A stretch of DNA of 64,000 bases from Bathymodiolus brooksi. Lineage: Eukaryota > Mollusca > Bivalvia > Mytilida > Modiolidae. Location of the stretch: positions 34,135,103 to 34,199,102 of the forward strand of contig OY804575.1 of assembly GCA_963680875.1 (NCBI GenBank), written 5' to 3'. The position numbers were made by a program, and so were the translations under genes. Position 1 is the first letter of the stretch. The number at the start of each line of letters is the position of its first letter. This document shows, piece by piece, positions 4,028 through 64,000 of this stretch. Under the pieces are notes generated by a model. It searched no databases. It saw only the letters and a program-made list of their open reading frames with translations, and was not told where the DNA came from.

Positions 4028-4110
4028 ACCGATGATTCAATCCCAAGTTGTAGTACGTCCTAATACCTTGTTTGTTTTAATACTATATGACCTATATCAC
4101 CTGTGACTTG

Positions 4111-18783: not shown

Positions 18784-18839
18784 CAAAACCCCAATTGAAA
18801 AAATTAAAGTTATCCGCTTATGAATTTGCAGAGCTGAAA

Positions 18840-35904: not shown

Positions 35905-37308
35905 GTCACAGGTGATATGGTATTGAAACAAACAAGATGGTAGGACGTATTACCATTCAACATTACCGTTATGTATAAACATAAATGGTCATCCTTTTAT
36001 GTGCCTCTGTTGATGTCGTTTGCACTAATTTTGAAAACAACAGAACAAGGTTCGGTTGATCTACAGAATAATTGTGTTGTTAAAACCGTGGACTCGAACA
36101 TCGCGTCAAAGGTGGATCAAATGGCAAAGGACGGAGCAAAAGTAATATACAAAAGGCATGTGTATTTTCATATTCAAAATTTCATTGGAGATTTGCTTGA
36201 AGAAGAGAAAGCAAGTGTTTACAAACCGTTATCATGGGTATGTACAACCGGTCGTCACGGAAGAAGCCTTCTACTTTTACTGGCTATTAAAAATATCAGT
36301 AGCCCTATATCCCTAAACTATCATTTGTCCATTTGTATCGTGATCGTTTTTCTGTTACCTGTTCAACTGAAATGTTTCTAACTCAAAGGAACATCAGTTA
36401 TGGCTTTTCAAACAGGGAACCAGAATGTGTAGTTTATAGAATAATCCTCCGGCTAAGGAGCACTCTAAATTTCGGTAAATTTCCAAAGTTCAAAACATAC
36501 CAGTGCGGTCGTAAAGCTTACGGAAGGATTCGAGAGAAGGCGAATTTTTTTTTTATATTTTGTAATTAATTGATTGTTATTGTTTAGATTATAGTACACT
36601 GTCGTCAAAGAGCTCCGATCGAAAATGTTTGGTCAACATCCGGGATATTTTAAAGCGGTATTTTTAAAGCAGACACGGATAATTATCGTAAGCATTTATA
36701 AATATACTGTGTACATAATGTTTTGAATTATGATACTTTATGATTGTTATTATTATTAATTTCATTTTTTGTCCAAATATCATTTATTTTTGCAGTGTAA
36801 AATTAGATTTTTCTATAAGTTATAAGGAATCCGGCTTCAAAATCATTACAATCAACTGAAATATCGCTATATCTTGCATTTACGAATGAATTAAATGTTG
36901 CCCAAAAAGAAAAAAATATTGATGAATGATTGATTTTACTTAAAAATACTATTTTATTGATGAAAAGTCAATTAGTAACAAGTTATACCCTAAAACATGA
37001 TGTCAACAGATGTTTTTGAAATCCGGATTGGTCAAAATGTAAACATGTATACAAACCGGTTGGGTCATTTATAAATAACCGGGTTTGTCAGTATGTAAAT
37101 GCCACTGATTTAGTTTATAATTATTTTATTTGATCAATGATACAAAGAGGATCAGACACAAGTTTTACCAACTTATGGAGTCTTCTCCTATATATACAAT
37201 CATTATTACATTATATTGAGAATGCACAAGAAAACAAGAAAAATACAATTTTATCATATAATATAGCTGAAAATAGTAAACGAGTAAAAAGAAATGAAGA
37301 AAAAGTAT

Positions 37309-37324
37309 GTGTGTGTGTGTGTAT
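37309..37324. repeat. (GT)n microsatellite
   Basis: A short GT run inside the element at 36597-39842. Confidence 0.8.
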
Positions 37325-37899
37325 GGATGCTGGATGATGCCACTGATCTTATTGTTATTGAGCATTATATTGCAATTTAACAATACCGGGGTAGTTATGA
37401 TTAGGAAATATCTCAAATGCGATAAATACTGATTCATAGTATGAATATTCGCCATGGTTGCTAATTTCAGCTACTTTGTACAATAAAAAACTCGTTATTT
37501 CTATGTTAATTTTAAATTGCTACTGTCGCAAACACTTGATTTTTTTTAATACTTTTTTTGGCACTGACATCACGTTGGTGCTCAATACGCTACACTCACC
37601 TTAAGTAGCTGTCCAGGCGCATCAATTGAGTAGTGGGAGATTCTTTTTATAACGCAATATTTTAATTTTATACTCGTTGATAACGAAGTAAGTCACTCTG
37701 TGGAAATAACTTCATGGATACGATACTTAAGTTTCTTCACAGTATAATGTTTACATTAACATTACAGATAAGCAAATTAACAAAGGCTGTAGTATTGAAT
37801 TCCTTTACGCACGGACGATTTTGGCAGTTTGTATACAAAGAAAATGTTAGGTGTACTCGATTAATGCAACGTTCGTTACAAGTTGTAATACGACAAATG

Positions 37900-38640
37900 T
37901 TCGTGCTTTGCTCACTGAAAATAGAGGCTCAGAGGCTCAGTGGTCTGAGCCTATGTCGTTCACCTTTCATTCTGCTTTGAAGAAGCTTAATACAAACAGA
38001 ACCTTCTATAGGTGCTTCCCACCAAAGTTCGGTTCATTTGGCTAAGCAGTTTCAGAGAAGAAGATTGTTAGAAATCGGCCAATCAGAAACAAGAATTGTC
38101 TGTGGCGAACATGTTTGTCAACGGATCGGGATGAAATGTGCAATCCTTAAAGAAGACCTTCCATAGTTGCTTCCTACCAAGTTTCGGTTCATTTGGCTAA
38201 GCAGTTTGAGAAGAGAAGATTTTATAAAATCGGCCAATTAGAAACAAGAATTGTCTGTGGATACCATGTTTGTTAACGGATCGGGATGAAATGAGCAATC
38301 TTTATAGAAGACCTTCCATAGTTGCTTCATACCAAGTTTCGGTTCATTTGGCTAAGAAGTTTTAGAGGAGAAGATTTTTTTTTTAAATCTGCCAATCAGA
38401 AACAAGAATCGCTTGTGGCGACCATGTTTGTTAACGGATCGGGACGAAATGAGTAATCGTTACAGAGGACCTTCCATATATGCTTCCTACTAAGTTTCAC
38501 TTCATTTAGTTGAGGCGTGTCAGAGGAAAAGATTAAAATGTGAATAGTTAATGGACGACAGACGACGAACGAAAGATGACGGACGACGGGCGTCAAGTGA
38601 TGGTAAAAGCTCACGTTGCCTTTGGCAATGTGAGCCAACA
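37900..38640. repeat. Tandem repeat, about 150-bp unit, four copies
   Basis: Units contain 'gaccttccatagttgcttcc', 'gttcatttggctaagcagtt', 'cggccaatcagaaacaagaa' and 'gttaacggatcgggatgaaa', near 38000, 38158, 38304 and 38468. The array ends in 'gacgacgaacgaaagatgac' and a hairpin-like 'cacgttgcctttggcaatgtg'. Confidence 0.75.
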
Positions 38641-38858
38641 ACAGTCATTGGGTAGATATGTCGCTCCACTCGGACACATTATTCTGATTCCGAGCCAACC
38701 AGTCTTTGCTTTTTCTCCTTAATGCTGCGTTCTTAGCGGAGAAGCAACAAATACCAATTTTATATTCTTTTGTTTGACAAGACCGCGGCTCGTACCCACA
38801 ATCTATCGCACTCGAGGCGAGCACGCTAGCCATTACGCTACCGATGCGGTTCCCTATT
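38640..38858 (-). mobile_element. tRNA-derived SINE (family A), copy 2
   Basis: Read on the minus strand: the head 'gcatcggtagcgtaatggct', 'tgctcgcctcgagtgcg', 'gggtacgagccgcggtc', and the tail 'ggaatcagaataatgtgtcc'. It matches copy 1 at 55-375. It adjoins the tandem repeat that ends at 38640. Confidence 0.65.
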
Positions 38859-39847
38859 TTTATTTAATTTTTATTTATTTTTTTAATCAAAATTTCTTAT
38901 TGTCCTTCAATATATTATTTGAAAACAAAAATTAATCCAAAACAATAAGAGTTACTTGATATCTATATAAACAGTGAGAGTTCCTACTTTTGATCAAACA
39001 CTCTTTGAATATGCAATAATCCAACTGTCTAGCAAATAAAGAAAAAGAATTATAAGTTCTATACAAAATCATGACCATTCTGTCGAAGGTGACTTGGTGA
39101 ATGCCAATTCTGCACAAACCGTTTTGTATTTCTTTCTTTTAATGGTATACAAAACATCCACATGTAACATATTTTGACTATGTACTGTTGGGTTTTTTTT
39201 CACAACTTTTATTCATTGAAGACAATTTTTTTTTATAAATTTGCAAGTCGAACATACCCTTGACAAGTGTTATAATGAACCTTAAATAAATTACAGAAAG
39301 GAAACATAATTGTGATATTGAGCTGTTTTCGCTATTCTTTCAATTTTTTACATAGACAAAACCGGTTCTACTGAAACACACTTTTTGCGACCCAACCGGA
39401 AAGTAGTGACTGACAGAGCCGGAACGAATGTACGTAAATAAGCATTGTGTTTTTCACTGTAGTAAATCTAAAACTATTCATGGGGGCACGCCAGTGCAAA
39501 CTATCATGCATATAAGCATTACAAAGGGTTTGTGTACTTTAATTACACATATAAACTACTTTTTATAGCTTTATTTGATGATTTCAATCTCATTATTAGC
39601 ATTTTTCATTGTTTATGTCCATCATTTTATCTATATCTGAGTAATCGATGAAGATAACTACAGTAATAGTAAAAACAAGCAAAAATAATCGACCCATAAC
39701 GACATCTTCTGGATTCAAGATATAATAATACTATATGATCATAATACTTACTTTTTGTCGTCGCCTGTATGTCAAACATGCCTAATTGACTTGTACCGGA
39801 AGATGACAGAGCATTTCCGACCGGAGCTCTTTGACGACAGTGTAGTA

Positions 39848-40570
39848 TGTCGTTGATATATTAAAATGTACCAAAACGCAGAATTAAATCGAGACAATTC
39901 CGGAATTTTTTTTTATCTTTAATCTTTTATCAACATCCGTGTTAAGTCTATCGAAAATTAAAGTTAGCAGTTAGTCAACTTAGTGATGTGGAATTATTTA
40001 TCGGGGGTCAAGTATGAAATGGAGAATGAGAAAGACCTTAGTGATAGTGAAATTGAAAGTGATCTGAATGAAGATATAGTGTTTGGCAAACTTTTTGACT
40101 TTTCTAGAGACTGAGTATTTATGTGTTGACAGTTCTGATCATGAAAATGTTTGATATTCTGCTTTGAAAACAATAAAAAAAAGTTCATTACACGTGTAAA
40201 TTTCTGTGTTTTATTTATTTATTTTCTATTTGCAACTCGCACAAATTAAGATAATGAGATCATACTACTATTCTGGTAGTTGATTTTTTTTTAAATCAAG
40301 AAAAATGTACTAAATGTTTATATATTGGGGAAAATCCACTTTTTCAACTAGTTTTATTTCTTTCAAAAATGTGTGTAAAATGCAGGATTTGGCTTAAAAA
40401 ATACAAAATTTTCTTGAGGGGGTGGGGGGGGGGGGGGAATAACTCCCCAATCCTCCTAGCGGCCCTCGTCATTTTCACCTGGGCTACTGCTTTTTAATCT
40501 GCCTTCTGGGCTAGCAGTCTCAAAATTTCAGTAGCCCAGCTGGCTATTATGCACAAAAAGTAAATCTGGG
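39848..40570. other. Inserted DNA inside the pseudogene, no gene recognised
   Basis: A short open stretch at about 40010-40114 reads an acidic peptide (ENEKDLSDSEIESDLNEDIV) to a TGA. It could be a remnant of a transposase N-terminus, but there is no downstream support. A G run lies at 40424-40438. Confidence 0.3.
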
Positions 40571-42360
40571 ACCCTGGAGACGTTCAAGAAAACTACTGTG
40601 GAACTGCATAGTGATGTTACATATGACGTCATATTGAGTAAAATTTACTTCGTGACCTCAATGGATCGACTGTTGCCATCAAATCGAGTTCCTGTAGGAA
40701 TGCTCGAATCGCTCCATTCTGCTTTGGTCGATTGTGGAATACGTAAAAACCCTTCCATTAAAGAATGTTGCAACAGTAATATGTTCGGACCATGTAAGCC
40801 ACGTGACCATACACTACCATGGTTTAAATTTTTGCGGCGCTTTATGCAACTTGTGACGTACATGTATATATTAATTGGAATTATTTGGATTGTACGACTG
40901 TATTTCTTTTTCAAATATGAAGAATCTGAACGCAATGAAAAAGAAAAGGCAGCAACCCTTAGAAACTTAGCTTTGTCATATGCAGGAAATTTGACATGGT
41001 ATTTAACTCCTATTCATGCTACTTTCCTCGTTTGTTATTGTATTTTTCTTGTCGATGTCATATTATTTGAAATATTGAGCGAGCACGTGAAAAACACTTT
41101 GAAACGCGTCATGCGGAAATGTTTGCGAGACATGCGGGAAATGTTAAAAAGAAGGGCTATTGGTTGGTCCGTGCACATTTTGCTCATTCCGTTCAAGCAT
41201 TGTGGAATTTTTTGGTGTTTTTTCGCATGGTTGTATTATATTCTAGCGATACCTATTGTACTTTTGTAGTCGTGACATTAGCATTTTATTGTCTTCCAGC
41301 AATTAATATATTGGTGCGGCTTATTTCTTTTGTTGCATACCTTCTTCCATACGGACGGAATTGTTTAACTGTAAGGTGTTGTTCTAAATTAAAACAGCTA
41401 TGTAATTATATTCACAGGGTATTCCGAATGAGCATTCTTAGCAGTAAAGAATCGATCGAAAGACCGGGAAATTTTTCTATGAAAAACAGATTTTTACAAT
41501 TGTTTGTGATATTGTCGTGTCTGTTGACTATTCTCTCGTTTGTTCTTCTCGCAATGGAGTGTATCCTGTTCTTAGGGGAAATTTTTAATGTATACTATTA
41601 TTGGTATAATCGTAAACGCATCCAATACATTGAAGTACTTATCATTGGTTTTCCTCCCTGGATTTTATGCACGTGATTGTTTTAGTACCGTCACTACAGA
41701 GTATTTAGCATTTAACAAGTTCTTAAACAGTTATTTAGTAGGAAAAATGAGAGAGAAAGTTGAAAAAATTTGTACATTGCACCACGACCTACAGAGGAAC
41801 ACGGCATTCAAAGTGAGTTTGGAAGATAGCAGTGGCGACGATGACAAGCCAGTATCCTTACTGATAAAAGATAGGAAATTGAAATGGAAAATAAACCGCT
41901 TAATTTTATTTCTAGACAAAATCATACCCCTTATATTATTACCTCTACATTTTTCTTTGATTCTTGCTATTTACAACAAGTTGGTGTTCCCGGACCTTTG
42001 TTAACGAGTTTGCTTCGTGCTACTCAACGATTTATGATAATTTGCGTCTTTTTATTTTTCGTTGTTGCTGTAATTTTAGCTTTTGGTGAAGAATATGGAA
42101 TCTCACCAACCAATCAAATGTTTGCTACCTTAGCTGGAGGGTTTCTACCGTATATATTTAGAACTGTGTTGTTCAAACAAGTGGGACCAGTAACAGTTGA
42201 TCCTGACAATTTGAGTTTCAAGAGCAAATTTAAGCGAAAAATAGAAGAATATACAAAAAATTGGATCGTTTCTGACAGCAAAAGTACAACAGTTAAGGTA
42301 GACCATGTCGATATCCATGAAAAATCCATGAAAAATCAAAAGACGAAGAAGTAATGCTAC

Positions 42361-46128: not shown

Positions 46129-49100
46129 ATGGGGCTCCAAGATTTTATGTCAGAGTTTAGTAATCTAGACCCATCATGTAAGGGATTTGTAACAACAGAC
46201 CAATTGTTGGAATTTTATCAGTCTATATACTATAGTAGTATATCAGTAGAACAAATAGAGTCAGCAGTTAGTCAGATCTGTGGTACAACATCAGGCCGTA
46301 TTGCTAGACAACACTTTATGCCAGTTCTTGAAGAACTTGAACGCAGGCGTTCAATAGAAGAACAAGCATATTGGGACTTTCAAGCTCTTGATTACAAGGG
46401 AACCAACAGAATATCGCTGAAAGATGCTCTTATGATGTTTAGAGAATTCCATGCTGACAGATTCTCTTTGTATACATGGAAACAATTCTTGCAATCTCGT
46501 GATGATCCTGATGAAAATGTATATTTTGATGAGATAAGACTATGGTTATGCAATTACCCATCAGGGGAACCAGCATCTCAAGAACAGATAATCCAGGAAG
46601 AGAACCAGTTAGTTAGAAGACAATCAAAACATCAAAGTGATACAGTTAATAAATTAAAACAAATTCAAGTAAGTATATCATATGTTCTTGAATTGAATAT
46701 TGCACATTTCTTTGCATTTATAAAGTTTTATTCTGCATAGAAAGCTGATTTACATTGTAGCTAAGATCACAATGGAACAAGTTGTTGCTTCTTATATTAT
46801 TAAGTGGAATAGTGTTTTCTTTGCTGAAATGGAAATGAAAAGGTAAACATTTTTACTACCAAAGGAAACAAACTGAACAGAAAAAAGTGGTCCTAATAAC
46901 TTGAATTATTTTAAGACATTCATTTACAATATATATAAACAGAAAATTATCAAAAATCTAAGAATTTGTATCTACTTCATTTTCAGGACAGTCAGGAAGA
47001 ATTACATGAATATCTAGACAATGTTCAATACCATTCTCAGAGGAGGAAAAATAAGTGAGTTAAACAGTCTTATTTAATTGTCATAACCTGGTTTTGTACC
47101 TACCTCATTTAACTTTCCTTTTGTTTAAACAATAATATTTTATTTCATAGATATGATGTGCATAGTATACATATGCAAATTACAATAAGCAAAAATGATT
47201 CAGAAACAAGCTAAATTTTTTTTTTTTTCTAAATCTATTTCATTCCCTTTTGTTTTGACATCTCCAGAAAAAAAAATCTAACTTGATTTTGGTATATGCA
47301 TTAGTGGTTTATTTTTAATTACCAAGTTATGTGCATACAAACACAATTTTATACAAAACTGTTGAGAAAAACATTCTCTCCAGACTAAAATATAAAAGTT
47401 GAGTAATGACATGATATTTATAGATTATAATGAATACAGAGTAGATTTTTTGTGTTTCATTCATTACAGAACATCCCTAGAATAGATATTTTATTAATTA
47501 TCATCTTTTGTAATTCAGCAGTCTTATTGTAAAGACCTTGTGATTATTTAAAGTTTTTTAATCTGCAGGATATCCTTTATCAAATGCAGTTTAATTTGAA
47601 CATCTCTTTCAAAGATGGAAAAAAACATTTCTGAGTTACAAAACATGAGATGTTTTACTATTTTTCAACCTTTCCAAATATGAAATAAAAAATCCTATGT
47701 GTTTCCATTTAGGTTTAACAATGCAACATATAATTTATACCTCTGATCATCCCCACTGTTTCAATCTGACATCGGACAATATTTATCTAGTCTGTGTTAC
47801 TGTTACACTTTTCTTGTGGCAACATAATTGATTTGACATTTGCGGTCTACAGATAGAAGGCAATGCCAAACCCAGAGGGGACATGTTGAACTTGACGTTT
47901 TTAGAAATGATGTTAATTAAAAACTGTTCTGCACTCATTAGCTTTTCTGTAAATGGATCAATGATGTCTGGTGTCTTGAATATTTTTTTTGTAGTTGACT
48001 TATTACATTATTTTGTTATAAATAATAATATATGAAGAATTGAGTCGGTTGCCATTTTTTGAAATTTGATGTTACAATATTATATGTGTATAGCCTGTTT
48101 TCAGATGGGACAAACAAGGACTAGAAGCCATGTTATTTGATGATGGTTTAGAGGCAGATGACGAAACAACATCTACCAAACCTAAAGATAAGATAACCAT
48201 GTCTGATGTAAATGATGCTCTCTCACAGAAATATGACAAACTCAAGTCTAAGCTTCTGTGGGAAATGGCAAGAATGTATGCAGGTATTTCACTATTACAA
48301 AATATATGCCAAACTCTTTGATAAGCTTCTACATGAAAATGGCAAAAATGTCAGCAAGTTATTATCTTTTACACAATTTATAATCCAAATGCTAGTTTAG
48401 AATTATATTGGAAATAACAAAAATGTCAGCAGTTCATTCACTTTCACAAAATATGTTTCATGCTGTAGTATTAACTTCTATCTGATATTACCAAAATGTA
48501 ACAGGTAAAATTTGACATGATCATGTTTATTCTAATGGAATTGTCCAAGCTGCTTTGTACTAAATTTGCAAAACAGTAAGTCATTGAGAAATAATGAAAT
48601 GACAAGACCAGGTACTTAAAATAAATCTGAGTTTTTGCTCAAATTTAACCTAGTTTGTTGAGTGAAAATGGCTAAGATATGAGATTCTTTTGAGAAATCA
48701 GGGGGGTTAGGGTTATGGTGTTTAATGCCACTTTGAACAGTATTTCAGTTATATTCTGGCGGTCAGTTTTATTGATGGAGGAAAGCGGAGTACCTTGGGA
48801 AAACCACCGACCTGCCGCAAGTCACTGACAAACTTTATCACATGATGTTGTATCGAGTACACCTCGCCATGAGTGGGATTTGAACTCGCAACTTTAGTTG
48901 GTGATTGGTGATTACACAGGTAGTTGTAAATCCAACTACCATATGATCACGACCAAGACAGCCCCTGTTAGATTTTAGAGTATTGCAAAAAAAGAGCCTA
49001 TATGTATCATTAGATTCATATAAAATAACACTGAATATTTCAAATATGTAATTTTTCAGCTATGGAAAGTGACAGACAAGAGATTTTCCAACAGCTGTGT

Positions 49101-52100
49101 CGTGAGGAGAAACAATACAGTCGTGAAGGCAGTTTACAAGACAGAATAGATGGCCTACCTGGTTCTAGACTTAACTTAGCTGCTACCCTTATTGGACTGA
49201 TGGGAGAGGTCAAGTCACATGATATTAGAAGAAAGGAACAAGTAGAGAAAACAAGAGAAACCATGAGACAGCAAGGAATGAAAGAAAGTGACACTGATAA
49301 AGCTGTACAGATGGAGTATCAAGGAGTTATTAGTGGTAAGAAGTTTGATAAAAAATAATATACAGAGAAAGCAAATTAGCACCATCATAGATTATCTAAA
49401 ATAAAGGTTACATTTCTTCCCATGTCAGCATATTACTAATGATACTCTGTAAGAAATTCCTCTTGTGATGAGCAACTTGCCCCAGTTAATTATAACATTA
49501 CAATACTCATGTTATTGTATGTAGCAATGTGTAAAAGAGGTACTTTGTAACCAGGGGTGGAATCTTTCCTCCCAGCGTAGGAGAGGTCATTTTCTGACTG
49601 ACAAAAGAAGAAAGATGACTGCTCACCATGAGCGGGTAGTGGAGATTGGCACTCATTCACAGTACATGTAGTTGTAAATCTAACTAACATATGATCACGA
49701 TCAAAGACAGCCACCAAATAGATTTGGATGTGGACCATTGTTTAAAGATGTATCTTCTGTAATTGTTGAAAAGCATGAGAATATTTTACAAGAAGCATAT
49801 TTATATTGTTGAGGATTTGTTTATTTCATGACTTGACAAATACGGGGGAAATTATCATACCAACATCTTGGCTTATTTTATGCATCAGACCTTACACATC
49901 CTGTTACACTTTCAACTGATTTTTTTTTAATCGAGAAAAGCATTCAAAATTTTCAACAACATCATAATTTTAACAATATGCAGTGCAAAATAAAACTGAC
50001 CGCCATGATATAACTGAAATATTGTTGAAAGTGGCGTTAAACACCATAACCCTAACCCTGCAGTGCAAAAGTGGCAACAGTACTTTATATTATTTGTTTC
50101 AGGTGATGCAACTTGTGGAGCCTCACTGGTTGGTTTAATAGAGAGATTTAAACTTGAAAAGGAAGAGATGATGGCCATGATAAGATCCAAGGTCAGTGTG
50201 TCCTCATTTACCATGGAGAATGAATACTATAGGTTGCTAAGACAACACATCCTGTTAACAGAAGAAGCAGGTTTCCCAGCAGTATCAGTTGCTGTAGGTT
50301 TGGCTGAAAGACAACAACAATATAAATCAGATAGGTAATTTGTTTAATTTTTAGGGTTGGATAAATGATTTTAGTGTTTAGTAAACTTGAAAAGAGAATG
50401 ATAGGAATGTATTTTGACAAGAGGTGGTGTAAAATGATAATTACCTTATTAACTTAATTAAACTCAGTTATGGATGGAATTTAAATTAATTTAATTGTGA
50501 AAAAAAGTCTTTAAGATTGTAAATTCTGAATAATCAAAAGAAGTCTGAAAGATAGTAAATACTGTATAACTTCCAAATGTAACAGTTGACCATGTATAGA
50601 TTTTCAAATTCAATTTAAATATAAGAATAGTATATATAGATCCAATGTTCTGACATAGTCTAATTGCCTGATGAATACTCTAAATTATTTTGGTCTATAA
50701 CTATTATACAAATGATTTTTCTTGTTTTAAAAAAGGAAAAAAAAATTTAAATTTCTTTTATAGTGAAAAAAAATACCTGAAAATCTGACAAAAATAAAAA
50801 TTTAAGAAGCAATACTTACTGTATGTACAGTGGCAAATACAACAGAAATTTACCAAACTCTCAACAATATATAGAATTAAAAAAGATATAAGTTAAAATA
50901 ATTATTGATAATAATTAAAACAGCTTCCTATGTTATTCATGTACTTCCATAATAAATCTTCAATCCAAGCTTCTCTAGTTATTGCATACATATCATGAAA
51001 CATTTTGCTGTATTTTTTTTTAAACCTTGATATCATGCCTATATGTCTGAACCTCTACTTGGTAGCATATTTTTGCTCCCAAATTTCTGATTTATACGAG
51101 AGTATATATGATATATTGCTGTTCTTCATCCTGTAGTTACTGTGAGAACTTCAGTGAAAGACATAAATTAATTTGATGTTTTTAGGGAACATGACTGGGA
51201 CAGGGGAAGAGCAGAGAGACTATCACAGATCAACTTAATGGAAAGGAAAGGCAGAAAACCCCAGCATACACCAACAGATATAGTTGACACTAACAAACTA
51301 GATGACATGGGGTTGACAGATCTGAAACAACACTTAATTAAAGAAATTGTACAGAAACATTTCTTTGAGAGAGAGGTAAGGCATCAACTTATATCAAGTA
51401 AGACTTGTACATAAACTTTGTATATAGGTTTGGAATATATATGTGAGATCTTAACACAAGTGAAAATATTAGACAAGGCAATCTCTGATACCAGGGTCTA
51501 ATATTTATTTTCTATGTTAATTTTTAAGGCAGATCTCTGTTACCACTGTCTAAGATTTAATATCTAAGATGAGGTTAAAGAGAGGTCTAAGGTGTTTATT
51601 CTTATTTCTCACTTTCAAATTTAAGAGGGCCCGGGTGGCTCAATGAGTTAGGTAGTTAGATTACCTAACAACTCATACAAGCCTATCACCAATACGGCGT
51701 GGGTTCGCGCCCGGCTTTGTAGATTACAAAAAAAGAGTGCACTCGACTCGCAGCCGCAAGTGATAAAGTTTACCAGTTGCTTGCCCATGGTTGGTGGTTC
51801 TCTCCGGGTACTCCGGCTTCTTCCACCACTAAAACTGGTCACCATGATATAGCTGAAATATTGCTGAAAGTGGCTTTAAAACACCAAAAATCTAAATCAA
51901 TTCAAATTTAATTGCTTTTGACAAAATAAAATGGAGAATATAAACAATGTTAAATGCTTGACACTAAATTGTACTATGAAATTTGTATTAAACATTATTT
52001 ATTTTAAGGCAATGATAAACATGTTACAAGGCAGAGAAAGTGAACAACAAAGGAAGAAGGCATACCAAATGAGTAGCCAGGAAAGAAAAAAGAGACTTAA

Positions 52101-55100
52101 AGTTCTGAGGAATCAACAAACTAGCTGGTCACAATCTAACTCAAATGACACGAAACATCTTCATCAAATACTAATGGAAGGTATTAATTATTTATAAAGA
52201 TAAATGTCTAATATGTTAGTAGTATGAAGAACAGCAATAAAATGTTGTTTCTTAATTTTGGATTTTTATGTCCCCGCCACTAAGTGGCTGGGACATATAG
52301 TGTTACCCATGTCCATAATTGCGAAATAAAACAGTTGTTAACACTTTTTTTCGCTATGCTTTGAGATATTGACTTGATATTTGGTATGTGGGTGTATAGT
52401 GATATGTTACAGATCGAGATTATGTTTCGTTCCGGTCCAATGATTTTTGGCTGAGTTTTGGACTTTGAAATTTGGCCAAATATTTAGTTGTCACCACTTT
52501 TTTTCGCTATGCTTGGAGATATTGACTTGATTTTTGGGATATAAGTGTATAATGATGAGTCACAGATCAAATTTACGTTTCGTTCCGGTCCAATGATTTT
52601 TGGTCGAGTTATGGCCCTTGGACTTTGAAATTTGGTCAAATTGGTATATGAGTGCATAATGATGAGTTACAGATCAAGTTTACATTTCGTTCCGGTCCAA
52701 TGATTTTTGGTCGAGTTATGGCCCTTGAACTTTGAAATTTGGCCAAATATTTAGTTTATTTCACTATGATTTGAGATATTTTTGGTATGAGAGTGTATAA
52801 TCATAAGTTACAGATCAACTTTGAAATTCACTTGTTATTCTTAGCCTATTACTTAGGGAATTAAAAAAGGGTGAAACATTTGCGAGCCTCTTTAATATTC
52901 ACGGCAGGGACATTCGTGTCATTCCGACACATCTAGTTTCCTATAGTATCTGATGGATTTTCTTTAGCTTACATCCATTTCTTTTCTTGTTAAATGTTGA
53001 TGGTATATTTATGATGTACTGGCTATAACTAATTATATTCCTAATACAGACTTTTTGAAATTTGTTTTGATTTTGCTGGACATAGGTCCAGCACCCAGGA
53101 ATTTTCTGCTGGACCTACATTTTTTATGTAAAATTGTTTTAAAGCCAAGCAATGTCATACCATTATTATTATTTTAGTCTAGCAGAGCACTTTCTGTATT
53201 TAACTTCATTAGTACTGGTAGAGGCCTAAAAATAGGAAGACCAATCACCATCCAGAATAAACCAAAAAGTTGAAACCATGCACCAAAAAAGAGTAGCCAA
53301 ATCCAGCTAGGGATACCCTCAAACTTTGAAAAATTTACCAGATTTAAAACATAATTTTTTTTATTTTTATTGAGATTACAATAACAATATTCTAAAAGTC
53401 ATTAGACTCTCTCAATCTCCTGGGGTGGCACTGGCTGTTTTATGTTTGCCCGGCTGAGCTCCGTCGTAATGCTTCAGGAACGACCACATTTTTATGATCG
53501 ACACAATTGCCATGTTGCCGGAACTGTAAACAAAATTCTAAATAGAAACGGATTCGGTGAAGGGAACGATACAAATCAGGGACGTCGTGTTTTTTTATTT
53601 TATTAATTTTTTGGGGGCTTTTCACTCTAAAAGATCATCTTACACATCACAATATATTCAAATATATTTATTTTCATGACAGTTACCAATAATATTTACC
53701 AAAAACAGATAAAATATCACGTATTCAATGCGGTTACGAATTCCGAGTTGACTGAACTTGTTCCGGTATTTACAATACGACCTGCATTTCCGACTTCCGT
53801 TAAGAAAGTAAACACATCATTCAAAAATGTTTGGCGGACATGTAGTCCGAGATTCCTCTGTCGTTTAACGGCATTGATAATCTTGCTGTAGCCGTTCAAC
53901 GACAGAGGGTGATACATACGGAAACCATCAAATTTGCCTCACAGCCATAGTATCGGCACATTTCCACGTTTCGTGGCTATCGGATTTTATTTTCTATCAT
54001 AAACCTTATATAAATCGCTTCACCAATCATTTTTCTATTCATTCATAACCATCTTACCCTCAGAAAGTGGTGTTACACTCCATTACAGCACGATTTTGCC
54101 TTAGATCCTATTATTCCGCCATTTGACTTCCATTTTCGAATCTACACACGTGATCTCGCGATACTAACTGAATGATGACAGCAACGCATTGCATGATGGG
54201 AGCTAATTAATGCAGCGTGCCAAATTATTTGGAGCATTATTTGCATACGTAAACAACATTCAAATCACATGGAAGACGATACATTTAAGCGTATTCTGCA
54301 GGACAAACAGTCCATCTACAGATCAAAGAAGAGCAGAAGGAAATTATACAGAATGTGTTGGAAAGAAAAGATTCAATGGCAGAGTGTTACCAACGGGCTT
54401 CGGAAAGAGCATGTGTTACGTTCCCCCTTTTTGTTTTTGGACAAGGTACTACATTTTTTTTTTCTTATGGTTATCTGTAATTCACTAAATTTGCTGTTAA
54501 AATCATTACCAATCAATGTAATCAACTGTATTAAATTTTATCTTAATTGTTCTGCCTTAACAGGCGCCTATGATTGGCAATAAAAATATTTGTTTGTTTG
54601 TTTATATGCAAATTATCTCCCATGATACATTGCGGTAATCGTAGTTTTCTCGTAGTCACGTGACAAATGTTTGAAAAATGGAAGACAAATGTCGAAATCA
54701 TAGGTTCTAAGGCAAAATCGTGCTGTAATGGAGTGTAACACCACTTTCTGAGGGTAAGATGTTTATGAATGAATAGAAAAATGATTGGTGAAGCGATTTA
54801 TATAAGGTTTATGATAGAAAATAAAATCCGATAGCCACGAAACGTGGAAATGTGCTGACCCAGAGTTGGAGAAGCAAATCCGCTGTTTTCCGTATGTATC
54901 ACCCTCTGTCGTTGAACGGCTACAGCAAGATTATCAATGCCGTTAAACGACAGAGGAATCTCGGACTAGCGGACATGGAGATCGGCATTATCGACGTTAT
55001 TGGCAGTCCTCATGATTTTCTGCCCCCTAGGTCCGATAGGTCCGACGAATTTCAAAAACTCTGCTAATATAAAACGCCAAACAGTCCATTTGTAAAACTG

Positions 55101-57446
55101 CTTAAATTAAGATCTAATTGTAATTTTAGCTGTTGCCATATATAGTGAAGTAAGAAGAGAAGAATTACTTCCTACAGCTAAAACTCTTACCGATGAAGTA
55201 GTATTAGAATGTGTTCTGACTGATCTTATACAGAGACAGGAAGTGGAATTTGAAGCAAGTCTAGAACAATTTGTTACAAAACAGGTACATGATAAATGTA
55301 AACTGTACATATATTGGAATATGTTTTAGTGTTTAATCCATCAGATAGTTTTACTGAAACAGTGAGTCAAGTCATCACTTAAACTACTAATGATTATTTC
55401 TATAACCTGTACAGAGTGTTGAGTCTCTGGATAAAGGAGATATTTTAACATCTTTATTTGAAAAATTGTCAAATATAGTTATTAAATATACATTTAAGAA
55501 GAAAAATGAATCAAAATTTTACAGATAATGTTTAACAATGAACTTTACATGAGAAAGTGTAACAACTCTTTAACAGATCCTCCGTGTTGTTTCTAAGATC
55601 TCTTGGTCTAAGTGCTAAAACTTGTCTCAATGATACAGCTGGCAAATTGCTAATAATTTCAAGAATTAAAAATAAGAATAAAAATAATGCTTTGAAAATG
55701 ATTTGACATTGTTTAAATTTTACCTTACCTCAGGGTGGACTTTGAAAGTTATTTAATAATCTTATTATCTATGACATTTAAATTACCCTTTTTTTTTATT
55801 ATATTATATGATTTCAGTTTGTTTAATTCTATACTAATAGGGGCAACCATGTCCAGTGCACACTATGGCAAGGTGTACATTGATATACAGTTAAACCTGT
55901 ATTAAGAGGTCACCTTTGGGACAAAGAAAAAGTGGCCTTTTATGACAGATGGCTTCTTAAAAGAGGTTCAATTGATATGAAATTATCTATGACAGGACAA
56001 GAAAAAAGTGACCTTTTAATACAGGTGGCTGCTTAACAGAGGTGACCTTTTAGGCAGGTTTGACTGTAGTCCTATATGATAAGCTGATCAGTAACTTACA
56101 GCAGGTCACTGGTATTATGCAGATCCATCAATATACTATGCCAAAATTTCATGACCAAAAAAGTTACCATTATCATTAATAACGGTAATTAGAATAGTGT
56201 AAAAAGTTATGTTAAACACTCATAATCCTAATCATAATCTTTAATTTACTTACAGGTAAAATCTTTTATTATTTACTTACAGGTAAAATCTTTAATTATT
56301 TACTTACAAGTAAACTCTTAATTATTTACTTACAGGTAAAATCTTTAATTATTTACTTACAAGTAAACTCTTAATTATTTACTTACAGGTACAATCTTTA
56401 ATTATTTACTTACAAGTAAACTCTTAATTATTTACTTACAGGTACAATCTTTAATTATTTACTTACAGGTAAAATCAGATGTGATACATCAGATTAAAAA
56501 AGAAAACAAGATTCGTGTTAAAGAACATTTTGATAATATATCTTTCGTTACCTTGGGAACAATAGAGATTTCAGCAGAAGATAAGGATTACATTGATGCA
56601 TTAGATGTCAAATATGATACCTTACGTAAAAATATCTTGAGGATGGGACTTCAGTATAAGATGGGCTCTGAATGGAAACAGTAAGTCTTAGAAGTATGCT
56701 TTTTAGCTCCCCTGACATGAAGACTCAGGAGAGCTATTGCCATCACTTGGTGTCTACCAACCGTCAAATATTGCTGCTGTTACTAAAAATAGAAATACAG
56801 TTGACTTCTTAATTGCAAAATTCGGATTTTGAGTTTTCAAACCCAATAAAATGGTAGACCTAACAGAAGTACAGTGAGACTTGATGTAGTGAATTTCCAG
56901 TTTAGACTGATTTTTCCATTTTCCTACTGTTAATAATACCTTTAAATCCAATTGAATATACAGTGAGACCTGTCTTGGTTTCTAAAAAGAGGTTTATTCT
57001 ACATAGTTGACAAAGAGTTGTCATATTTTAAAGTTGTCTCACAAATGAGGATGGTCTATCAAGATAGGATTCATTGTAACAAAGTTCTGTTAAAACTATT
57101 AGCAACTAATCTTGAAGGGCCCTAGAAGTTTTACTGTATTAAAACATTTAAATACATTCCTTTATATTTCTTGTAGAAAAAACAATGAAAACTTTTTCTT
57201 TTTCTTTTCATAAACCTTCAATAGTATATATGTATCTTTTTCTTATGAAAACCACATTTTAATACAATATAAAAAAACAATTTTATTTTTGGAAATTAAG
57301 AACTACAGTTTCATTGTATTTCCCTTCACAGGTTGAATGACAAAGAAAGAAAGAAACATCTGAAAGAAAAGGAAAAAGAAGAAAGAAAACTGAGAGGACA
57401 AGGACAGTTAGAGGAAATGGAGAATCTGATAGGTCCTAAATCAAAG
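46129..57446 (+). CDS. EF-hand-like and coiled-coil protein, ten coding exons, 3' part beyond the window
   Basis: Exons: 46129-46668, 46987-47054, 48105-48283, 49060-49335, 50103-50334, 51186-51375, 52009-52180, 55130-55284, 56469-56680, 57332-57446. All junctions are GT-AG and all phases agree, giving 713 codons without a stop. The ATG follows a 5' UTR piece that starts at 46102. Residues 1-140 contain degenerate EF-hand loops ([12 protein letters not shown] at 14, [12 protein letters not shown] at 88, [12 protein letters not shown] at 125) lacking several calcium ligands, so calcium binding is doubtful. From about 150 the protein is mostly charged helix with probable coiled coils, ending in the basic [20 protein letters not shown]. 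No signal peptide or membrane segment is seen, so a cytosolic or cytoskeletal/ciliary role is possible, but I do not recognise the family. Introns hold SINEs, a tandem repeat and a foldback. The exon 9 acceptor and the exon 10 donor lie in tandem repeats. Confidence 0.85.
48700..48968 (-). mobile_element. SINE (family B), full-length copy in intron 3
   Basis: Read on the minus strand: the head around 'tggtcgtgatcatatggtag', 'ggtagttggatttacaac', 'gagttcaaatcccactcatg', then 'ggtcggtggttttcccaagg', the module 'actgaaatactgttcaaagt' and the end 'ataaccctaaccc'. This is the clearest copy and defines the order of parts. Confidence 0.75.
49620..49728 (-). mobile_element. SINE (family B), head fragment in intron 4
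   Basis: The plus strand shows 'tgtagttgtaaatctaacta' and 'catatgatcacgatcaaaga', matching the inverted head of the copy at 48700-48968. The 3' module is absent here. Confidence 0.5.
49991..50058 (+). mobile_element. SINE 3' module with 12-bp target duplication, intron 4
   Basis: Only the 3' module ('atataactgaaatattgttg', 'gtggcgttaaacaccataac') and the CCCTAACCC tail are present. TGCAGTGCAAAA stands directly on both sides (49979-49990 and 50059-50070), a clear target-site duplication from a 5'-truncated insertion 44 bases before exon 5. Confidence 0.8.
51622..51900 (+). mobile_element. tRNA-derived SINE (family C), copy 2, intron 6
   Basis: The head 'gcccgggtggctcaatgag' and 'acggcgtgggttcgcgccc' (box-B-like) precede 'ttgcttgcccatggttggtg', 'ccaccactaaaactggtcac' and the module 'atatagctgaaatattgctg'. 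It matches the copy at 26408-26680. Confidence 0.8.
52265..52935. repeat. Tandem repeat, about 120-150-bp unit, about four copies, intron 7
   Basis: Units share 'tttcgttccggtccaatgat', 'ttttggtcgagttatggccc', 'gactttgaaatttgg' and 'gatattgacttgat'. The block begins 'tatgtccccgccactaagtg' and closes 'gacattcgtgtcattccgac'. Typical of dispersed, internally tandem bivalve repeats. Confidence 0.75.
52936..53834. other. Intron 7, no gene recognised
   Basis: Nothing beyond short ORFs without domains (53440-53625, 53676-53891). Confidence 0.35.
53835..54982. repeat. Foldback: inverted arms of about 370 bp around a helicase remnant, intron 7
   Basis: The arm 53835-54202 and the inverted arm 54612-54982 share 'cctctgtcgtttaacggcat', 'ccgttcaacgacagagggtg', 'cacatttccacgtttcgtgg', 'accctcagaaagtggtgtta' and 'attgcatgatgggag'. 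The outer parts are nearly identical and the inner parts more diverged. The spacer is about 410 bases. The ORF at 54852-55067 and its inverted partner at 53717-53917 both read [18 protein letters not shown] because they lie in the arms; no protein family is recognised. Confidence 0.85.
54269..54460 (+). pseudogene. RecQ-like helicase N-terminal fragment, frameshifted
   Basis: The start [15 protein letters not shown], then in another frame [17 protein letters not shown], then in a third the Walker-A block [15 protein letters not shown] (about 54385-54430), fit the Q motif and motif I of a superfamily-2 DNA helicase of the RecQ type. At least two frame changes separate the pieces, and nothing downstream follows. 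It lies between the arms of the foldback, so it was probably carried or captured with it. Confidence 0.6.
55285..56249. other. Intron 8, no gene recognised
   Basis: AT-rich intron sequence with three loose repeats of 'aaaaagtggccttttatgac' / 'gaggtgacctttt' type near 55905-56055. Confidence 0.4.
56250..56475 (+). repeat. 26/27-bp minisatellite that contains the exon 9 acceptor
   Basis: Nine copies of 'tttacttacaggtaaaatc' or its variant with 'acaagtaaactc' alternate, with periods of 27 and 26 bases. The last copy supplies the acceptor ttacttacag of exon 9 (56469) and the first codons GTAAAATCA. Each upstream copy with 'acttacag' has the same acceptor-like sequence. Confidence 0.85.
56681..57331. 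other. Intron 9, no gene recognised
   Basis: Ordinary AT-rich intron. The minus-strand ORF at 56754-56951 has no domain. Confidence 0.4.
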
Positions 57447-60400
57447 GTATTTTATTTTAATGGAGAATCTGATAGATCCTAAATCAAAGGTATTTTATTT
57501 TAATGGAGAATCTGATAGGTCCTAAATCAAAGGTATTTTATTTTAATGGAGAATCTGATAGGTCCTAAATCAAAGGTATTTTATTTTAATGGAGAATCTG
57601 ATAGGTCCTAAATCAAAGGTATTTTATTTTAATGGAGAATCTGATAGGTCCTAAATCAAAGGTATTTTATTTTAATGGAGAATCTGATAGGTCCTAAATC
57701 AAAGGTATTTTATTTTAATGGAGAATCTGATAGGTCCTAAATCAAAGGTATTTTATTTTAATGGAGAATCTGATAGGTCCTAAATCAAAGGTATTTTATT
57801 TTAATGGAGAATCTGATAGGTCCTAAATCAAAGGTATTTTTTTTAATGGAGAATCTGATAGGTCCTAAATCAAAGGTATTTTATTTTAATGGAGAATCTG
57901 ATAGGTCCTAAATCAAAGGTATTTTATTTTAATGGAGAATCTGATAGGTCCTAAATCAAAGGTATTTTATTTTAATGGAGAATCTGATAGGTCCTAAATC
58001 AAAGGTATTTTATTTTAATGGAGAATCTGATAGGTCCTAAATCAAAGGTATTTTATTTTAATGGAGAATCTGATAGGTCCTAAATCAAAGGTATTTTATT
58101 TTAATGGAGAATCTGATAGGTCCTAAATCAAAGGTATTTTATTTTAATGGAGAATCTGATAGGTCCTAAATCAAAGGTATTTTATTTTAATGGAGAATCT
58201 GATAGGTCCTAAATCAAAGGTATTTTATTTTAATGGAGAATCTGATAGATCCTAAATCAAAGGTATTTTATTTTAATGGAGAATCTGATAGGTCCTAAAT
58301 CAAAGGTATTTTATTTTAATGAAGAATCTGATAGATCCTAAATCAAAGGTATTTTATTTTAATGAAGAATCTGATAGGTCCTAAATCAAAGGTATTTTAT
58401 TTTAATGAAGAATCTGATAGGTCCTAAATCAAAGGTATTTTATTTTAATGGAGAATCTGATAGATCCTAAATCAAAGGTATTTTATTTTAATGGAGAATC
58501 TGATAGGTCCTAAATCAAAGGTATTTTATTTTAATGAAGAATCTGATAGATCCTAAATCAAAGGTATTTTATTTTAATGGAGAATCTGATAGGTCCTAAA
58601 TCAAAGGTATTTTATTTTAATGGAGAATCTGATAGGTCCTAAATCAAAGGTATTTTATTTTAATGGAGAATCTGATAGGTCCTAAATCAAAGGTATTTTA
58701 TTTTAATGGAGAATCTGATAGGTCCTAAATCAAAGGTATTTTATTTTAATGGAGAATCTGATAGGTCCTAAATCAAAGGTATTTTATTTTAATGGAGAAT
58801 CTGATAGGTCCTAAATCAAAGGTATTTTATTTTAATGGAGAATCTGATAGGTCCTAAATCAAAGGTATTTTATTTTAATGGAGAATCTGATAGGTCCTAA
58901 ATCAAAGGTATTTTATTTTAATGGAGAATCTGATAGGTCCTAAATCAAAGGTATTTTATTTTAATGGAGAATCTGATAGGTCCTAAATCAAAGGTATTTT
59001 ATTTTAATGGAGAATCTGATAGGTCCTAAATCAAAGGTATTTTATTTTAATGGAGAATCTGATAGGTCCTAAATCAAAGGTATTTTATTTTAATGGAGAA
59101 TCTGATAGGTCCTAAATCAAAGGTATTTTATTTTAATGGAGAATCTGATAGGTCCTAAATCAAAGGTATTTTATTTTAATGGAGAATCTGATAGGTCCTA
59201 AATCAAAGGTATTTTATTTTAATGAAGAATCTGATAGGTCCTAAATCAAAGGTATTTTATTTTAATGGAGAATCTGATAGGTCCTAAATCAAAGGTATTT
59301 TTTTTTAATGGAGAATCTGATAGGTCCTAAATCAAAGGTATTTTATTTTAATGGAGAATCTGATAGATCCTAAATCAAAGGTATTTTATTTTAATGGAGA
59401 ATCTGATAGATCCTAAATCAAAGGTATTTTATTTTAATGGAGAATCTGATAGGTCCTAAATCAAAGGTATTTTATTTTAATGGAGGATCTGATAGGTCCT
59501 AAATCAAAGGTATTTTATTTTAATGGAGAATCTGATAGGTCCTAAATCAAAGGTATTTTATTTTAATGGAGAATCTGATAGGTCCTAAATCAAAGGTATT
59601 TTATTTTAATGGAGAATCTGATAGGTCCTAAATCAAAGGTATTTTATTTTAATGGAGAATCTGATAGGTCCTAAATCAAAGGTATTTTATTTTAATGGAG
59701 AATCTGATAGGTCCTAAATCAAAGGTATTTTATTTTAATGGAGAATCTGATAGGTCCTAAATCAAAGGTATTTTATTTTAATGGAGAATCTGATAGGTCC
59801 TAAATCAAAGGTATTTTATTTTAATGGAGAATCTGATAGGTCCTAAATCAAAGGTATTTTATTTTAATGGAGAATCTGATAGGTCCTAAATCAAAGGTAT
59901 TTTATTTTAATGGAGAATCTGATAGGTCCTAAATCAAAGGTATTTTATTTTAATGGAGAATCTGATAGGTCCTAAATCAAAGGTATTTTATTTTAATGGA
60001 GAATCTGATAGGTCCTAAATCAAAGGTATTTTATTTTAATGGAGAATCTGATAGGTCCTAAATCAAAGGTATTTTATTTTAATGGAGAATCTGATAGGTC
60101 CTAAATCAAAGGTATTTTATTTTAATGGAGAATCTGATAGGTCCTAAATCAAAGGTATTTTATTTTAATGGAGAATCTGATAGGTCCTAAATCAAAGGTA
60201 TTTTATTTTAATGGAGAATCTGATAGGTCCTAAATCAAAGGTATTTTATTTTAATGAAGAATCTGATAGGTCCTAAATCAAAGGTATTTTATTTTAATGG
60301 AGAATCTGATAGGTCCTAAATCAAAGGTATTTTTTTTTAATGGAGAATCTGATAGGTCCTAAATCAAAGGTATTTTATTTTAATGGAGAATCTGATAGAT

Positions 60401-63400
60401 CCTAAATCAAAGGTATTTTATTTTAATGGAGAATCTGATAGATCCTAAATCAAAGGTATTTTATTTTAATGGAGAATCTGATAGGTCCTAAATCAAAGGT
60501 ATTTTATTTTAATGGAGGATCTGATAGGTCCTAAATCAAAGGTATTTTATTTTAATGGAGAATCTGATAGGTCCTAAATCAAAGGTATTTTATTTTAATG
60601 GAGAATCTGATAGGTCCTAAATCAAAGGTATTTTATTTTAATGGAGAATCTGATAGGTCCTAAATCAAAGGTATTTTATTTTAATGGAGAATCTGATAGG
60701 TCCTAAATCAAAGGTATTTTATTTTAATGGAGAATCTGATAGGTCCTAAATCAAAGGTATTTTATTTTAATGGAGAATCTGATAGGTCCTAAATCAAAGG
60801 TATTTTATTTTAATGGAGAATCTGATAGGTCCTAAATCAAAGGTATTTTATTTTAATGGAGAATCTGATAGGTCCTAAATCAAAGGTATTTTATTTTAAT
60901 GGAGAATCTGATAGGTCCTAAATCAAAGGTATTTTATTTTAATGGAGAATCTGATAGGTCCTAAATCAAAGGTATTTTATTTTAATGGAGAATCTGATAG
61001 GTCCTAAATCAAAGGTATTTTATTTTAATGGAGAATCTGATAGGTCCTAAATCAAAGGTATTTTATTTTAATGGAGAATCTGATAGGTCCTAAATCAAAG
61101 GTATTTTATTTTAATGGAGAATCTGATAGGTCCTAAATCAAAGGTATTTTATTTTAATGGAGAATCTGATAGGTCCTAAATCAAAGGTATTTTATTTTAA
61201 TGAAGAATCTGATAGATCCTAAATCAAAGGTATTTTATTTTAATGGAGAATCTGATAGGTCCTAAATCAAAGGTATTTTATTTTAATGGAGAATCTGATA
61301 GGTCCTAAATCAAAGGTATTTTATTTTAATGAAGAATCTGATAGGTCCTAAATCAAAGGTATTTTATTTTAATGGAGAATCTGATAGGTCCTAAATCAAA
61401 GGTATTTTATTTTAATGGAGAATCTGATAGGTCCTAAATCAAAGGTATTTTATTTTAATGGTGAATCTGATAGATCCTAAATCAAAGGTATTTTATTTTA
61501 ATGGAGAATCTGATAGATCCTAAATCAAAGGTATTTTATTTTAATGGAGAATCTGATAGGTCCTAAATCAAAGGTATTTTATTTTAATGGAGAATCTGAT
61601 AGGTCCTAAATCAAAGGTATTTTATTTTAATGAAGAATCTGATAGGTCCTAAATCAAAGGTATTTTATTTTAATGGAGAATCTGATAGGTCCTAAATCAA
61701 AGGTATTTTATTTTAATGGAGAATCTGATAGGTCCTAAATCAAAGGTATTTTATTTTAATGGAGAATCTGATAGATCCTAAATCAAAGGTATTTTATTTT
61801 AATGGAGAATCTGATAGGTCCTAAATCAAAGGTATTTTATTTTAATGGAGAATCTGATAGGTCCTAAATCAAAGGTATTTTATTTTAATGGAGAATCTGA
61901 TAGGTCCTAAATCAAAGGTTTTTTATTTTAATGGAGAATCTGATAGATCCTAAATCAAAGGTATTTTATTTTAATGGAGAATCTGATAGATCCTAAATCA
62001 AAGGTATTTTATTTTAATGAAGAATCTGATAGGTCCTAAATCAAAGGTATTTTATTTTAATGGAGAATCTGATAGGTCCTAAATCAAAGGTATTTTATTT
62101 TAATGGAGAATCTGATAGATCCTAAATCAAAGGTATTTTATTTTAATGGAGAATCTGATAGATCCTAAATCAAAGGTATTTTATTTTAATGGAGAATCTG
62201 ATAGGTCCTAAATCAAAGGTATTTTATTTTAATGGAGAATCTGATAGATCCTAAATCAAAGGTATTTTATTTTAATGGAGAATCTGATAGGTCCTAAATC
62301 AAAGGTATTTTATTTTAATGGAGAATCTGATAGGTCCTAAATCAAAGGTATTTTATTTTAATGGAGAATCTGATAGGTCCTAAATCAAAGGTATTTTATT
62401 TTAATGGAGAATCTGATAGGTCCTAAATCAAAGGTATTTTATTTTAATGGAGAATCTGATAGGTCCTAAATCAAAGGTATTTTATTTTAATGGAGAATCT
62501 GATAGGTCCTAAATCAAAGGTATTTTATTTTAATGGAGAATCTGATAGGTCCTAAATCAAAGGTATTTTATTTTAATGGAGAATCTGATAGATCCTAAAT
62601 CAAAGGTATTTTATTTTAATGGAGAATCTGATAGGTCCTAAATCAAAGGTATTTTATTTTAATGGAGAATCTGATAGATCCTAAATCAAAGGTATTTTAT
62701 TTTAATGGAGAATCTGATAGGTCCTAAATCAAAGGTATTTTATTTTAATGGAGAATCTGATAGGTCCTAAATCAAAGGTATTTTATTTTAATGGAGAATC
62801 TGATAGGTCCTAAATCAAAGGTATTTTATTTTAATGGAGAATCTGATAGGTCCTAAATCAAAGGTATTTTATTTTAATGGAGAATCTGATAGGTCCTAAA
62901 TCAAAGGTATTTTATTTTAATGGAGAATCTGATAGGTCCTAAATCAAAGGTATTTTATTTTAATGGAGAATCTGATAGGTCCTAAATCAAAGGTATTTTA
63001 TTTTAATGGAGAATCTGATAGGTCCTAAATCAAAGGTATTTTATTTTAATGGAGAATCTGATAGGTCCTAAATCAAAGGTATTTTATTTTAATGGAGAAT
63101 CTGATAGGTCCTAAATCAAAGGTATTTTATTTTAATGGAGAATCTGATAGGTCCTAAATCAAAGGTATTTTATTTTAATGGAGAATCTGATAGGTCCTAA
63201 ATCAAAGGTATTTTATTTTAATGGAGAATCTGATAGGTCCTAAATCAAAGGTATTTTATTTTAATGGAGAATCTGATAGGTCCTAAATCAAAGGTATTTT
63301 ATTTTAATGGAGAATCTGATAGGTCCTAAATCAAAGGTATTTTATTTTAATGGAGAATCTGATAGGTCCTAAATCAAAGGTATTTTATTTTAATGGAGAA

Positions 63401-64000
63401 TCTGATAGGTCCTAAATCAAAGGTATTTTATTTTAATGGAGAATCTGATAGATCCTAAATCAAAGGTATTTTATTTTAATGGAGAATCTGATAGGTCCTA
63501 AATCAAAGGTATTTTATTTTAATGAAGAATCTGATAGGTCCTAAATCAAAGGTATTTTATTTTAATGGAGAATCTGATAGGTCCTAAATCAAAGGTATTT
63601 TATTTTAATGGAGAATCTGATAGATCCTAAATCAAAGGTATTTTATTTTAATGGAGAATCTGATAGATCCTAAATCAAAGGTATTTTATTTTAATGGAGA
63701 ATCTGATAGATCCTAAATAAAAGGTATTTTATTTTAATGGAGAATCTGATAGGTCCTAAATCAAAGGTATTTTATTTTAATGGAGAATCTGATAGATCCT
63801 AAATCAAAGGTATTTTATTTTAATGGAGAATCTGATAGATCCTAAATCAAAGGTATTTTATTTTAATGGAGAATCTGATAGATCCTAAATCAAAGGTATT
63901 TTATTTTAATGAAGAATCTGATAGGTCCTAAATCAAAGGTATTTTATTTTAATGGAGAATCTGATAGATCCTAAATCAAAGGTATTTTATTTTAATGAAG
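57413..64000 (+). repeat. 43-bp minisatellite, about 153 copies, built from the exon 10 end and its 5' splice site
   Basis: The unit reads atggagaatctgataggtcc then taaatcaaag/gtattttatt ttaa, where the slash marks the exon end and the intron start. The first unit overlaps the last 35 bases of exon 10 (57412-57446), which are in the reading frame. Later units are almost identical; common variants are ggtcc/gatcc, ggag/gaag and loss of the A in ttttatttt. The array runs to the window end, so its length is at least 6.58 kb. Each unit contains AAAG/GTATTT, so more than 150 identical donor-like sites lie in a row. Because 43 is not a multiple of 3 and the unit read on has a stop after 21 codons, use of a later donor would break the protein. 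Confidence 0.95.

Follow-up and report, generated by a model that had tools for sequence, protein, structure and literature searches.

Amphioxus genes (globin, Adh3, TnC, and PGBD5) contain the so-called mirages, i.e., splice junctions reiterated in tandem, and the accessible parts of the two reports (PMC3087553, PMC3902484) state that regular splicing is left undisturbed by them, as reverse transcription PCR suggests. In human ABCA7, according to the consulted portion of PMC5954066, intron 18 carries a variable number tandem repeat (VNTR) of about 12-427 copies, whose 25-bp unit opens with the donor GT of exon 18; about 2% of transcripts use the next donor, located one unit further downstream, independently of VNTR length, the out-of-frame isoforms are targets of nonsense-mediated decay (NMD) and increase under a translation block, and longer VNTRs went with more skipping of exon 19 (a 4.1-fold rise in the case of an expanded allele). 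Intron gain through tandem AGGT duplication is proposed in the Rogers model, as cited in PMC3087553. Here, we describe a 43-bp minisatellite of 165 units, which spans the donor site of coding exon 10 of a gene encoding a protein with a weak EF-hand match in the bivalve Bathymodiolus brooksi (GenBank assembly GCA_963680875.1, contig OY804575.1, positions 34,135,103 to 34,199,102 of the forward strand; these 64,000 nucleotides are referred to below as the window). In our opinion, it is probably a passive splice-junction minisatellite of the mirage kind, tolerated through exon definition.

The array and the surrounding part of the gene comprise the following elements (coordinates beyond 64000 are continued window coordinates, taken from the downstream DNA of the same contig):

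46129..57446, forward strand: ten coding exons of the protein with the weak EF-hand match, with consistent phases and 713 open codons; the gene continues downstream
56469..56680, forward strand: coding exon 9, placed by phases and open frame
57332..57446, forward strand: coding exon 10 (115 nt, the final 31 of which belong to unit 1), placed by phases, open frame and the match to exon 11
57416..64509 (57416..64000 in the window), forward strand: the 43-bp donor-spanning minisatellite, 165 units in all
57447..57452, forward strand: intron side of the exon-proximal donor AAAG/GTATTT, the only donor leading in frame to exon 11
57480..57482, forward strand: in-frame TAA, met by transcripts using donor 2 or a later one
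66541-66631 (continued coordinates), forward strand: exon 11 (91 nt), with a single open frame

The first-pass annotation of the window had reported a donor-spanning minisatellite, and its reality is borne out by the Tandem Repeats Finder call (57416-63997, period 43, 153.1 copies, 98% match), by the unit count, and by the phases of exons 10 and 11. The copy number of about 153 given there holds for the window, where 153 full units plus 7 bases were counted (with 152 exact AAAGGTATTT sites), but not for the array as a whole, which reaches 165 units and ends at 64509; the array also starts at 57416 and not at 57413. The 43-bp unit joins 31 bases of the exon to 12 of the intron, the latter starting with the donor; 164 units are 43 bases long and one has 42 bases. 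The donor had been described as kept in all copies, which is correct for AAAG/GT (165/165 units) but not for the full hexamer, since AAAGGTATTT is present in 164/165 units and the odd one reads GTTTTT, differing at +3.

The 152 units of 43 bases in the window are 99.3% identical to the consensus, and the variation among all 165 units is confined to a single deletion and eight variable columns. When the array is shifted against itself by 24 units, a stretch of 37 units coincides, including five variant units in the same order; therefore, a 24-unit block is present twice. This duplication and the high identity are equally consistent with homogenisation or recent expansion, the two possibilities which had been proposed before and which the variant counts uphold. 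Unit 1 is identical to the consensus, and an exclusion of the boundary copy from homogenisation was not seen. The number of units might also be questioned on technical grounds, as long arrays are, as is generally known, frequently misassembled in copy number. An assembly artefact hiding a far lower true count is nevertheless very unlikely in our view, given that the units carry ordered variants, that normal gene sequence flanks the array on either side, exons 10 and 11 being in phase, and that junction arrays of other units and sizes (described below) occur elsewhere in the assembly.

A search of the whole assembly (2.0 Gb, 136 contigs) with the 43-bp unit, allowing up to three mismatches, gave 165 forward and no reverse matches, with no matches for the control. 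Because these 165 matches equal the 165 units counted, the unit belongs to a single locus and is not a dispersed satellite; a dispersed satellite family was considered and dropped on the basis of these equal counts. A 32-base stretch of the unit had no exact match in viral contigs. It should also be recorded that over 57447-64000 the opposite strand contains 150 AATAAA hexamers and the sense strand one.

Only one of the three frames of exon 11 is open, and it is the frame given by exon 10 ending at 57446; exons 12 and 13 continue in phase after it (the donor of exon 11 was placed one base beyond the first guess, for phase with exon 12). This confirms that the first donor alone preserves the reading frame. 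The claim that later donors bring a stop codon stands as well: they would enlarge exon 10 from 115 to 158, 201, 244 nt, etc., each time with the same TAA at 57480-57482. After exon 13, a small gene finder predicted 29 further exons, up to 124300; it was trained on 16 exons of the host gene and used hand-entered splice matrices, and all exons after 13 are to be read as predictions. Intron 9 is 651 nt long and intron 10 is 9,094 nt long, of which the array accounts for 7,063 nt (77.7%).

Considering the protein itself, Pfam indicated a weak EF-hand pair near the N-terminus (E 4.5e-05, below the curated cut-off), the search of solved structures with the 713-residue protein gave no match at E up to 1, and ten matches were obtained when it was compared with the assembly, all at its own locus. 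Neither Rfam, with its gathering thresholds, nor ARAGORN gave any hit in the window.

The reading that we favor may be put as follows. A tandem duplication across the exon 10/intron 10 border would have seeded the 43-bp unit, and unequal exchange or slippage would have raised the number of units to 165. The splicing machinery would recognise exon 10 from its acceptor, reaching across the exon, and would for this reason take the donor copy nearest to it; the remaining copies would fall into the intron, leaving the protein unchanged, while intron 10 would grow from its own edge. The array would have no positive function. Introns 9 and 10 are long enough for exon definition, which supports this reading. 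Moreover, in human minigenes with two identical strong donors 52 nt apart and flanking introns of 365 nt, the upstream donor was used exclusively (PMC9225289, in the part consulted). Because these minigenes and ABCA7 favor the upstream or exon-proximal donor, nearly exclusive use of 57446 is to be expected. The passive reading is further favored by the frame, which is open into exon 11 from donor 1 only, by the RT-PCR results on the amphioxus mirages, and, as described below, by the recurrence of the arrangement at myosin and CCT junctions and the decay of later donors.

ABCA7 also points to a possible consequence of the array length, which is compatible with a passive origin: a longer array would lengthen intron 10, may recruit splicing factors, and could thereby cause more skipping of exon 11 and frameshifted RNA that is degraded. 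The length of exon 11, which is no multiple of three, means that skipping breaks the frame, and in ABCA7 it is the next exon whose skipping rises with VNTR length (PMC5954066, consulted part); the authors of that study, however, draw attention to motifs within the ABCA7 unit that correspond to named splicing factors. We regard such an effect as unlikely here. Tuning of productive output by copy number, as suggested in the first-pass annotation, may survive only through this route.

In the host gene, four further arrays span a splice junction, equally divided between acceptors and donors, which makes five in total. Those beyond exon 13 were recognized from tandem-repeat calls combined with the gene finder:

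56244..56476, forward strand: about nine copies of a 27/26-bp unit across the acceptor of exon 9, with the junction TTACTTACAG/GTAAAATC
at predicted exon 77255-77380: donor array, 68 bp x 1.9
at predicted exon 88336-88451: donor array, 48 bp x 19.3
at predicted exon 106221-106441: acceptor array, 65 bp x 14.1

The share of an intron taken up by copies of its own border is 67% in the one preceding predicted exon 106221, 39% and 3% in those following predicted exons 88451 and 77380, respectively, and 19% in intron 8. One more repeat, with 15 copies of an 84-bp unit at 110707-112194, reaches a predicted donor but was excluded, as it reads as an in-frame coding repeat. Two other minisatellites were noted in this region (both in continued coordinates): an intronic one of the host gene at 94882-101427 (L021, 43 bp x 152), which touches no predicted exon, and one at 128237-133352 (L024, 51-bp unit x 100), which has an acceptor-like stretch and lies outside the exon models.

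Junction arrays were also found in other genes of this genome. A search for myosin head exons gave 80 matches, 30 of which were examined as loci, and a junction array or duplication was recognised in 9 of the 30, which correspond to four independent sites; this count refers to the exons marked in the 30 loci. Five stretches of about 10 kb containing CCT genes were sampled as well, and three of them have junction duplications. The arrays are:

L037, L038, and L039 (myosin paralogues): 76-bp donor unit
L052, L053, and L056 (myosin): 53-bp donor unit, with 12, 5, and 3 unit starts, respectively, by exact pattern
L055 (myosin): a diverged two-copy form of the 53-bp donor unit (76% match)
L042 (myosin): 32-bp donor unit
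L048 (myosin): 42 bp x 2.1, a marginal case that barely spans the acceptor
L058 (CCT): acceptor x2
L059 (CCT): donor x1.9
L060 (CCT): acceptor x3.5

The paralogous myosin arrays are unequal in copy number. The 76-bp unit has 283 matches in the assembly, with contig C16 given for all among the matches listed. No junction duplication was found in the remaining two CCT stretches (L057 and L061), and the repeat at 970-2033 of L059 (38 bp x 28), which had the look of a donor array, was dropped, as no exon was seen there. The myosin and CCT stretches beyond the hidden Markov model hits were assigned by protein motifs which we take to be characteristic. At the myosin and CCT junction arrays, the exon-proximal copy encodes conserved protein (in part by motifs outside the hidden Markov model hits). 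As separate observations, the myosin paralogue L039 of C16 has two in-frame TAA codons in its head exon beside a donor array with 20 or more units and is probably a broken paralogue, and two uninterrupted chaperonin frames of 564 codons with equal scores, at C78:2023350-2024849 and C125:74769-76268, suggest that these may be bacterial contigs within the assembly.

The diverged arrays reveal the fate of the sites that are further from the exon. In L038 and L039, for which the first 20 units (all those within the loci) were considered, the exon-proximal GT is intact, while the later donors have kept it in 15/19 and 15/19 cases (30/38 pooled), and 63 and 65, respectively, of the unit's 75 dinucleotides are retained in a larger number of copies than the GT. 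By eye, the later GT is present in 9/11 copies of L052, 4/4 of L053, and 2/2 of L056; the corresponding count for L037 is 2/2. In the exon 9 array, AG is found in 6/9 copies, including the exon-proximal one (5/8 upstream copies). Later sites thus decay in the most diverged arrays.

This decay bears upon the proposal that the repeated donors are functional, be it as a sponge for the U1 snRNP, a brake on the polymerase, or a U1 shield against premature polyadenylation. Such a function would agree with the AAAG/GT present in every unit and with the strand asymmetry of AATAAA in the window part of the array, but the losses in the two diverged myosin arrays speak against it, and constraint on the donors of the given array is not demonstrable: the seven variant changes in the window would spare GT by chance with P 0.72, and since the variants are too few, selection cannot be judged. 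As a sign of function, the retained donors do not bear weight, GT being lost in 8/38 later myosin copies. For GTATTT, U1 pairing is predicted at -5.7 kcal/mol, close to the weakest value among the gene's ten donors in the window (-5.6 to -10.1); yet exon 3 ends in the identical hexamer, and by a hand-entered matrix the donor falls within the top 3.2% of the 3,377 GTs of the window. No special RNA structure was detected in the 258 nt of the array that were analyzed (z 0.71). With such weak predicted pairing, and with the nascent RNA of a single gene being a small sink relative to nuclear U1, the sponge previously put forward is unlikely, and we give hardly any credence to a functional role of the repeated donors as a whole.

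To compare the frequency of junction arrays with chance, single units were placed at random, which we preferred, since it is a single unit that straddles the junction. In the host gene, 4/16 short-unit arrays lie on junctions versus 0.75 expected (P 0.005, or 0.0066 when wholly exonic placements are barred), a count that leaves out the given array and the ambiguous coding repeat at 110707-112194. With the coding repeat included, the numbers are 6/24 arrays (P 0.0054), 5/23 after removal of the given array (P 0.022), and 5/17 for short units without the given array (P 0.0005). The CCT sample gave 3/16 versus 0.81 expected (P 0.039), and both samples pooled gave 7/32 (P 0.001, or 0.005 if there were 60% more junctions than marked). 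These P values are optimistic, as for two CCT exons it was the array that pointed to the exon. When whole arrays were placed at random instead, no junction excess was observed (P 0.96).

The excess may suggest that the junction itself favors tandem duplication (e.g., through pausing or R-loops at the exon-intron border), which would make junctions mutational hotspots. Although the P values for the gene and for the CCT sample favor a hotspot, the samples are small, two CCT exons were marked via the array, most exons after 13 are predicted, and the whole-array placement gives no support; we consider a hotspot rather doubtful, albeit slightly less so than the skipping effect. It is compatible with the passive reading, and the passive, hotspot, and skipping explanations are not exclusive and may hold together.

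Several points weigh against the passive reading based on exon definition. A purely neutral origin alone would not explain a frequency of junction arrays above chance. The uniform arrays keep every later site (AAAG/GT in 164/164 units of the given array, GT in 18/18 copies of the 48-bp array at 88415 and in 8/8 of L042, AG in 13/13 upstream copies of the array at 105344), and this full retention is indistinguishable from youth. L038 and L039, in which the decay is seen, are paralogues sharing variants, and the frame of L039 is interrupted by two stops. In the case of exon 9, use of the acceptor one unit (27 nt) upstream would add nine codons and also leave the frame open, so that the frame gives the proximal copy no preference there. 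Because NMD removes out-of-frame isoforms, the 2% reported for ABCA7 would be an undercount of next-donor use. The splicing studies relied upon (PMC9225289 and PMC5954066, in their consulted parts) come from human cells; in the former, larger exons were skipped when both minigene donors were very weak, and it cites Reed and Maniatis for a preference for the downstream donor in intron-defined splicing.

A broader, tentative reading, which we hold as possible though short of an even chance, is that reiteration of splice junctions is a common route of intron growth in this genome, with exon definition protecting the exon-side copy, so that arrays could expand at each border with little penalty, and the junctions acting as hotspots. 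If this were true, its product would be introns in which the intron's own border, copied over and over, makes up the greater part (78% in intron 10, 67% in the one before predicted exon 106221). This one genome offers near-identical donors that compete in numbers from 2 to 165, plus competing acceptors, some of them at conserved myosin and CCT exons, so that how splicing chooses between equal sites, and what the extra ones cost, becomes testable by long-read RNA. It also suggests that minisatellites anchored at an exon-intron border, which amphioxus and one human gene are known to have, can be frequent in a genome and build introns.

Apart from the array, the window contains a 141-bp tandem repeat in 28 copies at 28849-32791 and in three inverted copies at 18838-19263. 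Its neighbors are reading frames which we take to be helicase-like (27457-28504) and transposase-like (16713-18783), and the region is probably mobile-element DNA. An open frame of 918 codons at 1280-4036 (reverse strand), presumably resembling DC-STAMP-like membrane proteins, has a broken-up relative in the opposite orientation at 35944-42354 (forward strand).

The open-access literature searches, judged largely by title and abstract, returned no report of junction-spanning arrays in a mollusc, and the consulted part of PMC4039745 describes nematode intronic minisatellites and does not concern junction-spanning repeats. Duplication over AG/GT yields extra splice sites here as in the Rogers model, with the difference that an existing intron grows and no new intron is seen. 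With ABCA7, the locus shares a many-copy minisatellite at the donor of an exon, and ABCA7 strongly favors the exon-proximal donor; in ABCA7, however, the 25-bp unit has no exon bases and begins exactly at the GT, whereas unit 1 starts 31 nt inside exon 10, and for the human gene RNA and disease data exist. The likeness to the mirages lies in a tandem unit across an exon-intron border (donor or acceptor), which holds exon and intron sequence with a splice signal. The frame and exon 11 agree with donor 1, and regular splicing may be undisturbed. The mirages of globin and PGBD5 have 2-6 copies of 60-160 bp units, and those of Adh3 have units of 10-72 bp, in contrast to the 165 copies found here and to the five junction arrays in one gene. 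The arrangement is thus of a known kind, to which this locus and its genome add the lineage, the size reached by an array with an exon-containing unit, the five arrays per gene, and the recurrence across genes.

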